Below, one piece after another: positions 5,391 through 9,704 of a DNA stretch of 64,000 nt. This DNA comes from Traorella massiliensis (GTDB lineage Bacteria; Bacillota_I; Bacilli_A; Erysipelotrichales; Erysipelotrichaceae): the NCBI RefSeq assembly GCF_900104665.1, contig NZ_LT629969.1:715716-779715 (forward strand), given 5' to 3'. The position numbers and the translations under genes were made by a program. The notes beneath the pieces are model-generated. The model saw only the letters and a list, made by a program, of their open reading frames with translations, was not told where the DNA came from and ran no database searches. Every line of letters starts with the position of its first letter. Positions within the stretch are counted from its first letter, which is position 1.

Positions 5391-5416
5391 GAATAAAATA
5401 TCATCTTCCATATTCT
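5391..5416 (+). promoter_or_regulatory. Possible sigma-E-type promoter of cotJABC
   Basis: GAATA at 5391 and CATATTCT at 5409-5416 resemble the -35 (ATA-containing) and -10 (CATACANT-like) boxes of mother-cell sigma-E promoters, 13 bases apart and about 40 bases before cotJA. The call rests on loose matches plus the known sigma-E control of cotJ in Bacillus. Confidence 0.35.
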
Positions 5417-5453
5417 AAGAGTGAGGAACCCCTCAGAAAGGAATCAATTAATT

Positions 5454-5642
5454 ATGAGCAAAGAATTTGGATGCAGTCGTAACCGCAGGGATTCACGTCC
5501 TCTGGCTATGGCTTATGTTCGTAAACAGTCATGGCGCAGAATTTATAAGTTAGATGTAGCGATTGCCCGTGGAACACTGTTTAATGAACTGGATATGCCT
5601 TTTAGTGGATGCGGAACAGGAGGTAGACATTGTGAGAAATAA
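5454..5642 (+). CDS. cotJA: Spore coat-associated protein CotJA
   Basis: A short CotJA-family protein of the inner spore coat. The conserved core PLAMAYVRKQSWRRIY followed by ARGTLFNELDMPF is complete. I place the start at the ATG at 5454 (MSKEFGCS), 10 bases after AGAAAGGA, not at the upstream ATG at 5421. The end overlaps the GTG start of cotJB by a few codons in another frame, so the two are translationally coupled. It is the first gene of a cotJA-cotJB-cotJC operon, which in Bacillus is expressed in the mother cell and builds part of the coat with the CotJC manganese-catalase-like protein. Confidence 0.85.
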   Translation: MSKEFGCSRNRRDSRPLAMAYVRKQSWRRIYKLDVAIARGTLFNELDMPFSGCGTGGRHCEK

Positions 5643-6393
5643 TGATGATTTTGATTTTTGCGATATTGATCGTCATAATGATGATTGTGATTTTGATTTC
5701 TGTGAAGATGATTGTGAATATAACAATGGATATGACCGTCGTCGAATAGGAGATTATGATCGCAGAAATGGCGGTGACTGTGATGATTATGATTCTCGCC
5801 GCCGGGATAGAGATTGTGATCATGATGATTGTGAAAGCCATAGACGAAATCGTGACTGTGACTGTGAAGAACGATGCGGACGTGAAACTGATAGATGCGG
5901 ATGCCATGATCATGATGATTGCCGTTGTCATGATAGAGAAGATGGCTGCTGCCATGAAAATAATCATGATAACGGATGTTGTGAAAGAACAGCTCGCTGC
6001 AGTGATTTTAGAGATTTTAATGAAGATGAAAGATTTGGATGTAATTCTGCATATGATGCGGCACAGAGTGAAGATTCATGGTTTGATCATCGTGAAGATG
6101 ATGATTGCTGTGGGCGAACTCGTGAATTATGTGAAGAAGAAAGAAATTTTAAGAGAAAATTAAAATGTCGTATTCAAGTATTGGATTTTGCTTTACTAGA
6201 AACTATTTTATTTTTAGACACGCATCCTTGTGATTTTGAAGCACTACGTTATTACCGCATTATTAGAAAAAAATTAGCTCGTTTAGAAAAACTTTATGAA
6301 TGTAAATTCGGACCTCTGACAAATCAGGGCGTTGATACAGAATTTGGCTGGGAATGGGCAACGTGTCCATGGCCTTGGGAAGGAAAGGAATAA
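5632..6393 (+). CDS. cotJB: CotJB with a long Asp/Cys/His/Arg-rich N-terminal extension
   Basis: The last 75 or so residues are a clear CotJB spore coat protein (LDFALLETILFLDTHPCDFEA, KFGPLT, then the Trp-rich end WEWATCPWPWE). CotJB is normally 80-90 residues, but this one has 253. GTG at 5632 follows AGGAGG by 7 bases and opens a region of about 175 residues made mostly of Asp, Arg, Cys, His and Asn, with about two dozen Cys in pairs or CxC spacing (for example CGCHDHDDCRC, DGCCHE, NGCCERT). There is no predicted fold. The extension is in frame with the core and has no stop. It may bind metal or cross-link the coat; that is inference. The next gene, cotJC, starts 3 bases later. Confidence 0.85.
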   Translation: MRNNDDFDFCDIDRHNDDCDFDFCEDDCEYNNGYDRRRIGDYDRRNGGDCDDYDSRRRDRDCDHDDCESHRRNRDCDCEERCGRETDRCGCHDHDDCRCHDREDGCCHENNHDNGCCERTARCSDFRDFNEDERFGCNSAYDAAQSEDSWFDHREDDDCCGRTRELCEEERNFKRKLKCRIQVLDFALLETILFLDTHPCDFEALRYYRIIRKKLARLEKLYECKFGPLTNQGVDTEFGWEWATCPWPWEGKE

Positions 6394-6396
6394 TTT

Positions 6397-7029
6397 ATGT
6401 GGACTTATGAAAAGAAACTTCAGTTTCCAGTAAATATTAAAAAATGCGATCCAGAAATGGCAAGACTTATATTAACAGCATTGGGTGGTCCAGATGGTGA
6501 GATGGGAGCAAGTAATCGTTATCTTCATCAGCGTTATGCTATGCCTTATCCACAAATCGTTGTTTTATTAACGGATATCGGAAGTGAAGAAATGAATCAC
6601 ATGGAAGTTGTGAGTGCTATTGTACGCCAGCTGACAAGAAATCTTTCTTCTAAGCAAATTCAAGATTCTGGTTTTAATGCATTCTATACCGATCATACTT
6701 TAGGAATGTATCCAGTAAGTGCAAGTGGCGATCCTTTTATGTCACATTATTTTCAGTCAAAAGGTGATCCAATTACTGATATTCACGAAAATATGGCAGC
6801 TGAGCAAAAAGCGCGCACAATGTATGAAAATTTAATTCGCATGACAGACGATGATGATGTCATTCGTCCTTTAGAGTTTTTACGTCAACGTGAGATCGTG
6901 CATTATCAAAGATTTGGCGAAGCATTAGAAATTATTCGTCGTGAACTTGATTGTAAAAATTATTATGCTTTTAATCCGGCATACGATAAAAAAGCTTCTT
7001 TGGAAGACAGAGGACTTGAATCAAAATAA
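6397..7029 (+). CDS. cotJC: Spore coat manganese-catalase-like protein CotJC
   Basis: A 210-residue CotJC, a ferritin-like protein related to manganese catalase that sits in the spore coat. Metal ligands expected for the di-manganese site are visible: the DGEMGASNRYLHQRY segment, EEMNHMEVV (ExxH), the AAEQKAR segment and RQREIVHYQRF. Full length for the family. It is the last gene of the cotJ operon, which ends in a strong terminator 4 bases after the stop. Whether this protein still degrades peroxide is not known, but the ligand set looks intact. Confidence 0.92.
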   Translation: MWTYEKKLQFPVNIKKCDPEMARLILTALGGPDGEMGASNRYLHQRYAMPYPQIVVLLTDIGSEEMNHMEVVSAIVRQLTRNLSSKQIQDSGFNAFYTDHTLGMYPVSASGDPFMSHYFQSKGDPITDIHENMAAEQKARTMYENLIRMTDDDDVIRPLEFLRQREIVHYQRFGEALEIIRRELDCKNYYAFNPAYDKKASLEDRGLESK

Positions 7030-7268: not shown

Positions 7269-9704
7269 ATGAATTTTCTAAAGAATCATTTTAAAAAGGG
7301 AATAGCTCTTGGAGCAGCATTATTCATGATTATAAGTTTAATGCCTGTTCATGTTTCTGCGGCTGTAGATGAAACACTTTATCAAAATGAAAATATTTCT
7401 ATTTCTATTAAAAATAATAACAATGCTTATAATCCTAAAACAATTACTTTTGATATTATTGTTGATGGAGAAACTGTTGTTGAAGATAAAGTTGTTACAG
7501 ATATTCCACAGGCTAATTCTAAATTGATTATCGATGCGGATGGTTACGATGTTACTTTTGATGGAGATATTGGTGTAACAAAAGGAATTGATAATAACTA
7601 TAATCTGCAAATTGGAGCTGGAAGAAATCATGAGCTAACCATCAACCTTGCTTCAGAAAAAACCAGCGATGATATTCGAATTGAAGATACAGATTCAAAT
7701 ACTTATTATGGCACTTTTTCTTGGGTAAAAGGTGAAGCTACAACGAGTGCTTACCGTCGTTTGGTGACTGTGTATGTGAATGGTGAGTATGCATATGAAC
7801 AGTATGTAAACACACCTAGTCTGCTTAATAATGCAACTGGATCGAATAAGCAGTTCTGGTTTACACCTTCAGATGATTATAATGAAGAAGTTACATATAA
7901 TCATCCGTATGCTTTAGATACGGCAGCTAACTCTGATTTGGAAATTTATCTGACTACAAAATGTCCATGTGGAAATCCATATTGTGACTGTCCAGGCGGA
8001 ACAGATTGTACTTGTCATGAAGACTGTGAATGTGAATTATGTAATCCGCCTTTAGGTGATAATGAAATTCGTACTCCATATGGTGTGATAGAATATAAAG
8101 AACCAGGGTTAGGTGGCGGTTATAATTTAACTGTTGAAACCTATGTGAATGGAGTTTTAAAACATACGACTGATCAATTACGAATTAGAAGCGGTGAAGT
8201 AGATAGCTTGAATTTTACACCAACAAGTGGATATTATTATTTTAATGATGAGAATAGTTATGATTTGATTACAGATGGAGCGTCATCTTGGGATCAAAGA
8301 ACTGGCTGGATAACAATTGTTGGAGATAGAGATGATGACAATGTTCTAAAAGTATATCTATGGACATTTGAAAACCATGCCAGCTTGGATGTAGAGCGTA
8401 GACTTTCGGTTGATGATGATGTTACGGGTTATATCATTTCTTATGAAGCTTATAATCCTGAAACAAAACAGAATGAAGTCTTTACTTATGAAGCTACTTC
8501 TTTCTTAGCAGCTCAAAGCCAAATGATTCCTATTAATACGGATGTTACTATTACTGCTATCTGTAATTCACCATATGAAGTTAGTCAATGGTCAAGTGCG
8601 GATGCTTATACTGGAGTTGAACTGACAGGATCAGAAGGACAAAATAATACAGAAGCTTATGGTAATAGTGCTACTATTAAAGTAACTTCTACAGCTTATA
8701 CAGATGTTACTGTTTACATAGATGCTGTAAGAGAAGTTAAACTTCCTACTGAAGATGATTTGATTTCAAATAAAGATGAATGTTTTGACGGAAATGTAGC
8801 TGTAGTTGTAGATTGTATCAATAACTTAGAACACGAATCTAGTAATTATGGATTAATTGCCGATACATTTACTATTGGTCAATTAGAAGGTAATTCTGCA
8901 ACTGGTTATACTACCAAAGTTATTATTACTCAGCCAAGTGAATATGTAAATCGATATAATCAGGTAAATGGTGAACATACACGTGTAGATAGCGACGTAA
9001 AAGTTATTACATTAAAATGGGAAGTTGTAAATGGAGAAAGCCAATGGAAAGCTGTTGGATCAGCTACCTATGATGTGATTTGTGATCAGGGTGAAGATAA
9101 GCCTGAAAAGCCTGATCAGCCAACTGTAGAAGAATTACTGTTAGATAATGCAGTAAAGATCGATTGTGTCAATACAGAAGCAGATCATGACGATAAAGTA
9201 TATGGTTTAAAAGACGGCTATACAATTGGTGATGTATATACTAAAGATAATATCTACTATGTAGATGTAACGGTAGAAGCTGATGTTTATGTAGAAGCCT
9301 ACAGCACAGATATGGGATCACAGCATACGCTGAGCGCTGATTCAAAGACAAGCGATGTCATTACACTGGTTTATACAGAAGAAGGATGGGCAGTAGCAGA
9401 AAATGAAGCTCCTGTAACCTTTACTGTAGAGTGTGAAGATGGTGGATCTACAACAGATCCAGGAGATGAAGAAGATCCAAATGATCCTACAAATCCAGGT
9501 GAAGATCCATCTAATCCTCAAGAAGGTGAGAATGATGAAACAAATGATTCTGATTCGTCTTCAGATGACAATGATGCTTCAGATTCAACTCACACGCCTA
9601 ATACCGGAGATACAATGCATATCTATTTAATGGCTGCTTCAGTATCCTTGCTGATTTTATGTATTTATGCTTTAACTCATTTTAAAAAAGAATTTTCTGA
9701 TTAA
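7269..9704 (+). CDS. Large repeat-containing surface protein with sortase-type anchor
   Basis: An 811-residue exported protein. Residues 1-31 are a signal peptide (basic start, hydrophobic core, VSAA). About residue 232-262 holds a tight cysteine cluster (CPCGNPYCDC and CTCHEDCECELC) that could bind metal or form disulfides. Two related modules of about 90 residues sit near residues 505-610 and 625-725 (both begin with a V/I-D-C-I/V-N motif and end in a Cys). A Pro/Asp/Asn/Ser-rich wall-spanning region follows, then the C-terminal sorting signal TPNTGD, a hydrophobic helix and a charged tail. The motif has Thr where LPxTG has Leu. Adhesion or host contact is likely, but no named domain is recognised. 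Confidence 0.82.
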   Translation: MNFLKNHFKKGIALGAALFMIISLMPVHVSAAVDETLYQNENISISIKNNNNAYNPKTITFDIIVDGETVVEDKVVTDIPQANSKLIIDADGYDVTFDGDIGVTKGIDNNYNLQIGAGRNHELTINLASEKTSDDIRIEDTDSNTYYGTFSWVKGEATTSAYRRLVTVYVNGEYAYEQYVNTPSLLNNATGSNKQFWFTPSDDYNEEVTYNHPYALDTAANSDLEIYLTTKCPCGNPYCDCPGGTDCTCHEDCECELCNPPLGDNEIRTPYGVIEYKEPGLGGGYNLTVETYVNGVLKHTTDQLRIRSGEVDSLNFTPTSGYYYFNDENSYDLITDGASSWDQRTGWITIVGDRDDDNVLKVYLWTFENHASLDVERRLSVDDDVTGYIISYEAYNPETKQNEVFTYEATSFLAAQSQMIPINTDVTITAICNSPYEVSQWSSADAYTGVELTGSEGQNNTEAYGNSATIKVTSTAYTDVTVYIDAVREVKLPTEDDLISNKDECFDGNVAVVVDCINNLEHESSNYGLIADTFTIGQLEGNSATGYTTKVIITQPSEYVNRYNQVNGEHTRVDSDVKVITLKWEVVNGESQWKAVGSATYDVICDQGEDKPEKPDQPTVEELLLDNAVKIDCVNTEADHDDKVYGLKDGYTIGDVYTKDNIYYVDVTVEADVYVEAYSTDMGSQHTLSADSKTSDVITLVYTEEGWAVAENEAPVTFTVECEDGGSTTDPGDEEDPNDPTNPGEDPSNPQEGENDETNDSDSSSDDNDASDSTHTPNTGDTMHIYLMAASVSLLILCIYALTHFKKEFSD

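Follow-up and report, generated by a model that had tools for sequence, protein, structure and literature searches.

The cotJABC operon of Bacillus and Clostridia encodes the subunits of the CotJ complex of the spore coat, among them CotJB (PF12652), which usually comprises about 80-100 aa, a length that is common but not defining for the family, and lacks any long extension rich in Cys and Asp. To our knowledge, the molecular role of CotJA and CotJB is not well defined. The B. subtilis literature counts cotJB and cotJC, both of the inner coat, among the sigma-E genes (PMC3416734). Cysteine-rich coat material has been described in stand-alone proteins: self-assembly of CdeC, found like CdeM in Clostridioides, is redox-dependent (PMC7677010), and CsxA, ExsY and CotY, unrelated Cys-rich proteins, form spore layers stabilised by disulfides (PMC7333573). 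The cotJB locus of Traorella massiliensis (Erysipelotrichaceae; 2.6 Mb genome, labelled G000 in comparisons) shares its core family, gene order, overlap with cotJA and sporulation-type promoter with usual cotJB, and its high Cys content with CdeC, CdeM, CsxA, ExsY and CotY. Redox-dependent assembly is known for these five (PMC7677010, PMC7333573), which stand alone, whereas in Traorella the cysteines are carried by a tail on one subunit of the CotJ complex. No homology of the tail to any of the five was found, nor would low-complexity sequence be expected to show any. Core and operon identify the Traorella protein as a CotJB; it may act like the Cys-rich coat proteins without being homologous to them.

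The window, i.e. the whole stretch of 64,000 nucleotides analysed, carries the following features of the cotJ operon:

5409-5417, + strand: predicted -10 element CATATTCTA (contains CATANNNTA) of sigma-E/sigma-K type, for the cotJ operon
5422-5435, + strand: leader hairpin TGAGG-AACC-CCTCA, directly after the -10 element; same arrangement in relatives, with different inner pairs
5454-5642, + strand: cotJA, short form without Cys-rich extension, 62 aa (PF11007, E 1.3e-13)
5618-5624, + strand: ribosome binding site AGGAGGT of cotJB, inside cotJA; GGAGG in equivalent position in four Traorella genomes
5632-6150, + strand: N-terminal extension of CotJB, 173 residues, predicted disordered, rich in Cys, Asp and Arg
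5998-6045, + strand: conserved block CSDFRDFNEDERFGCN inside the extension (six-species alignment)
6055-6087, + strand: most conserved motif of the extension, DAAQSEDSWFD (DAADSDSTWYD in G144; six-species alignment)
6151-6393, + strand: CotJB core plus stop codon (PF12652 at residues 178-250; high-pLDDT helices 168-197 and 202-226)
6397-7029, + strand: cotJC, intact, Mn-catalase-type coat protein of 210 aa without Cys-rich tail (PF05067, E 7e-48)

Translation of cotJB (5632-6393) gives 253 aa without a stop, 173 of them in the extension. Its start codon, GTG at 5632, overlaps the 3' end of cotJA, is preceded at 8 nt by AGGAGG (5618-5623), and is the sole in-frame ATG, GTG or TTG ahead of the core; GTG and GGAGG occupy identical positions in all four Traorella genomes that cover the start. 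PF12652 matches residues 178-250 over profile positions 4-76 of 76 (E 2.3e-24, 85.8 bits, curated cut-off 29), and the gene lies between cotJA (PF11007) and cotJC (PF05067). The preliminary description of this locus, which had proposed an in-frame fusion of an Asp/Cys/His/Arg-rich extension to a normal CotJB core, behind a strong ribosome site and beside a di-manganese CotJC, is borne out in these points, an intact cotJC of the Mn-catalase type lying next to the fusion, as is its remark that CotJB is usually much shorter: tail-free CotJB proteins of relatives mostly have 80-95 aa. The gene cotJB is a single uninterrupted member of the cotJA-cotJB-cotJC operon, whose promoter sequence is of sporulation type. 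Downstream of cotJC, positions 7269-9704 encode an 811-aa secreted surface protein whose C-terminal region resembles sortase-dependent EF0750 proteins, below the family cut-off.

The sequence CATANNNTA, the -10 form that sigma-E and sigma-K recognise, is found 40-45 nt upstream of cotJA in the four Traorella genomes that include this stretch and in G144, a single genome of another genus. The leader hairpin is followed by AAAGG (5437-5441), and a TGAG...CTCA hairpin followed by AAAGG is present behind CATANNNTA in all of these genomes. The fifth pair of the hairpin is G-C, A-T or C-G depending on the species; because it changes and yet stays paired, the hairpin may be a selected mRNA 5' end. 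Hairpins of the form TGAGN..NCTCA lie right behind the cotJ -10 element in many Erysipelotrichaceae (window positions 5409-5441, loci L131, L130, L132 and others). A scan of 464 kb of the source genome recovered the cotJ leader and no second convincing combination of a -10 element with a hairpin leader. SpoIVA is encoded in all five Traorella genomes, which shows only that this coat base protein is encoded. Taken together, conservation of the CATANNNTA promoter, presence of SpoIVA and the sigma-E assignment of the B. subtilis inner-coat genes cotJB and cotJC make coat expression of Traorella cotJB likely.

The 173 residues of the extension include 41 Asp, 27 Arg, 23 Cys, 17 Glu, 13 Asn and 9 His, with neither Lys nor Pro, and have a net charge of -31. 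Cysteine accounts for 13% of the extension (23/173), compared to a mean of 1.6% in a genome sample made up of the window and 400 kb of further stretches of the same genome, and of the 473 non-overlapping ORFs in these 464 kb, it is cotJB in which Cys reaches its highest local density (17 per 100 aa). AlphaFold2, run on an alignment of 28 sequences, models the core confidently as a helical hairpin (helices 168-197 and 202-226) and leaves residues 1-139 and most of those up to 160 at pLDDT values of about 40-54; with so small an alignment, these low values support disorder of the tail weakly. The composition points the same way, i.e. to a tail that would be intrinsically disordered. Apart from PF12652 on the core, no Pfam or NCBIfam family above cut-off and no solved structure in the PDB matched the protein, and a weak match of the extension to UPF0184 (E 0.0087, below cut-off) looks compositional and was rejected as evidence of a known domain. 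Neither a second copy of the extension in the source genome nor a tandem-repeat array within the window's copy was detected; in relatives, the extension contains tandem repeats that keep the frame, with units of 33 bp in G003 and of 42 bp in G001 and G144.

The extension is kept in 5/5 Traorella genomes and in G144. Complete copies range from 173 to 208 residues, that of G003 being incomplete as its contig begins within the extension. Neither stop codons nor frameshifts occur in the extension across the six lineages, and all indels in nucleotide alignments are multiples of three. Between G000 and G002, dN is 0.17 and dS 1.35 in the extension (dN/dS about 0.13), with a dN/dS of 0.02 in the core. 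Conserved across the six species aligned are a block close to the core, CSDFRDFNEDERFGC, and the motif DAA[QND]S[ED]xxW[FY][DE], common to Traorella and G144. Protein alignments favour the matching of Cys residues. In nucleotide alignments, 17/22 Cys and 9/9 Phe are kept from G000 to G004, together with 12/26 Arg and 1/9 His; Cys is conserved significantly more than other residues in the pairs G000-G004 and G002-G004 and not in the pairs G000-G002 and G003-G004. In G144 the number of Cys is raised to 45 of 186 residues, with fewer Arg and His, and the composition drifts from Arg-rich in Traorella to rich in Asn, Gly and Pro. The Cys content and acidic nature of the extension persist, and its His and Arg do not. 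The genomes with the CotJB tail form a single clade in the CotJC tree (98/97) and in the CotJB-core tree (95/94). As read from these comparisons, the tail is under purifying selection and is kept in the clade made up of Traorella and a sister genus, where it changes by in-frame insertions, deletions and repeats.

Cysteine-rich tails are not peculiar to CotJB, as the preliminary description had supposed, since they also occur on CotJA and CotJC of sister lineages and on CotJA of one Clostridia genome. With a threshold of five Cys per tail, 14 of 31 Erysipelotrichaceae operons surveyed for CotJA, CotJB and CotJC have a Cys-rich N-terminal extension on CotJA (one of these, G176, is partly masked by N), the longest comprising 202 residues with 39 Cys (G094). 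Two of the 14, G094 and G102, also have a Cys-rich C-terminal tail on CotJC, that of G102 having been read separately from the scripted survey. Domain searches confirmed three of the tailed proteins: CotJA of G094 and G178, and CotJC of G102. The CotJB tail is found in 6/31 operons, all of one clade, and CotJA is short (60-62 aa) in the five of these six that cover cotJA. A tail on both CotJA and CotJB occurs in 0/31 operons, an exclusion to which no p-value is attached as the operons are related rather than independent; it fits a tail that would serve the complex rather than one subunit. Tail labels require six changes on the CotJB-core tree, many branches of which are weak. Since 11 of the 31 operons have no Cys-rich tail at all, the tail is dispensable in many lineages.

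The Cys-rich CotJA and CotJC proteins of this family (G094, G102, G176-G179, G210-G212) belong to the same operon and have a similar low-complexity make-up, but their tails sit on the N-terminus of CotJA or the C-terminus of CotJC and their repeat units differ from the CotJB tail, so that common descent of the tails is not established. We tentatively suggest, as a possibility falling somewhat short of an even chance, that CotJ complexes of Erysipelotrichaceae carry an exchangeable, disordered Cys-rich module which has shifted among the three subunits or originated independently on each (N-termini of CotJA and CotJB, C-terminus of CotJC), selection holding the tail on the complex and not on the subunit that bears it.

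Outside Erysipelotrichaceae, none of the loci examined in Bacilli and Clostridia had a CotJB with a long Cys/Asp-rich extension. Long CotJB frames in other families of Bacilli are mostly fusions with a CotJA-like, Cys-poor N-terminus; CotJA-like sequence fused to CotJB was noted at loci L037-L044 and L067-L099 (Coprobacillaceae-like and other Bacilli families), the CotJA match in the L037 fusion being below cut-off. The Traorella extension is not such a fusion, as the part added there is CotJA-like and poor in Cys and cotJA is here a separate gene. CotJB was detected in 233/393 Clostridia genomes, with frames of at most 180 aa among the matches listed, and a stretch of six Cys in 40 aa was absent from the approximately 48 Clostridia operons read. 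N-termini of other composition occupy the same place in Clostridia CotJB: Met/Gly-rich repeats (GGMDHMGGMDHM...) at L168, L169 and L170, an Asn-rich sequence at L183, and a Tyr/Asp/Cys-rich one at L181. When 323 Clostridia genomes were searched for CotJA, the matches listed included a repetitive 426-aa frame in G860 (L213) with about 20 repeats like KCPEKPSCVMPA and 51 Cys. Cys-rich CotJ tails are thus not confined to Erysipelotrichaceae and probably arose more than once.

Judged from sequence, disulfide cross-linking or scaffolding is the best reading of the extension. Specifically, we consider it reasonably probable that a folded helical CotJB core is preceded by a disordered, acidic, Cys-dense tail of 173 residues which acts as a flexible cross-linking tether of the CotJ complex in the coat. 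The core would dock into the CotJ (A/B/C) complex. On exposure of the coat to an oxidant, the thiols of the tail would pair into disulfides, either among themselves or with those of other coat proteins, so that a flexible, thiol-rich tether would join the complex to a disulfide-linked coat; the layers of CsxA, ExsY and CotY and the redox-dependent assembly of CdeC are precedents. Several points count against this proposal: an ordered disulfide lattice might require exact spacing, which is conserved in few stretches of the tail; disulfides alone leave the high Asp and Arg content unexplained; 11 of the 31 operons do without a Cys-rich tail; and the excess of Cys conservation is significant in two of the genome pairs and not in two others. 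Alternatively, the thiols could act as a redox buffer, scavenging oxidants or shuttling oxidising equivalents beside CotJC rather than forming cross-links. The subunit that bears the tail is the partner of a protein of the Mn-catalase type, and CotJC itself bears a Cys-rich tail in G094 and G102. However, most CotJ operons lack such tails, and free thiols and disulfides look alike in a sequence; we regard this alternative as unlikely.

Metal storage, one of the functions considered in the preliminary description, is quite unlikely on the present evidence. A tail acting as a metal store or chaperone, whether to supply CotJC with manganese or to bind zinc, iron or calcium, could draw on Asp, Glu, His and Cys as potential ligands and on the Mn-type protein next door; yet the tail contains 27 Arg, fixed ligand spacing is absent, and Mn2+ prefers oxygen and nitrogen ligands and is not thiol-seeking. 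It is above all the poor conservation of His, the least conserved residue between G000 and G004, that makes this function less likely, and thiol chemistry is favoured over it because Cys, Phe and one motif are kept between species and His is not. The acidic residues of the tail could still bind divalent ions weakly. A functionless insertion, driven by repeats and tolerated by a coat protein that is not essential, would agree with the 33-42 bp repeats in relatives, the variable length and the compositional drift between Traorella and G144, but is very unlikely in view of a dN/dS of 0.13, the retention of DAAxSxxxW[FY][DE] across genera and a frame uninterrupted in six lineages. Finally, an annotation or assembly artefact with the core translated alone from an internal start, for which only the usual CotJB length speaks, has negligible probability as far as sequence can tell: the preliminary description had named a start just before the core together with lack of conservation, a frameshift or an assembly error as what would speak against its own reading, and there is no such start, the extension is conserved in the genus and in frame in six genomes, and no frameshift is evident.

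No earlier description of such a CotJ tail was found in the literature on CotJ and Cys-rich coat proteins, as far as this is available without subscription. If true, a conserved, movable Cys-rich CotJ tail would provide CotJA and CotJB with a testable role, namely to anchor the CotJC enzyme in a coat linked by disulfides. Such a tail also suggests that Cys-rich coat material can come as tails on an old conserved complex and not only as stand-alone proteins, which bears on how spores of strict gut anaerobes harden.

In some relatives, cotJC itself is interrupted. Interruption at the same codon (...ED[ML]AA) was observed in four Erysipelotrichaceae and three Clostridia (L126/L188 of G205; L124, L125, L134, L164, L165, L166). 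The insert of G205 (contig C4, 80371-86758; 6387 bp) is flanked by GCAGCAGA, has a large serine recombinase at one end, and its removal in silico restores a CotJC of 200 aa. It looks like a skin-type developmental element; no literature linking cotJC to such an element was found. In G144 (L055, minus strand), cotJC is split at another site (TEEYAH), with halves about 6.6 kb apart and a large serine recombinase in the insert. In G092 (L195/L122), the cotJC frame is cut short beside prophage-like genes (holin-like, amidase-like), possibly by a prophage.
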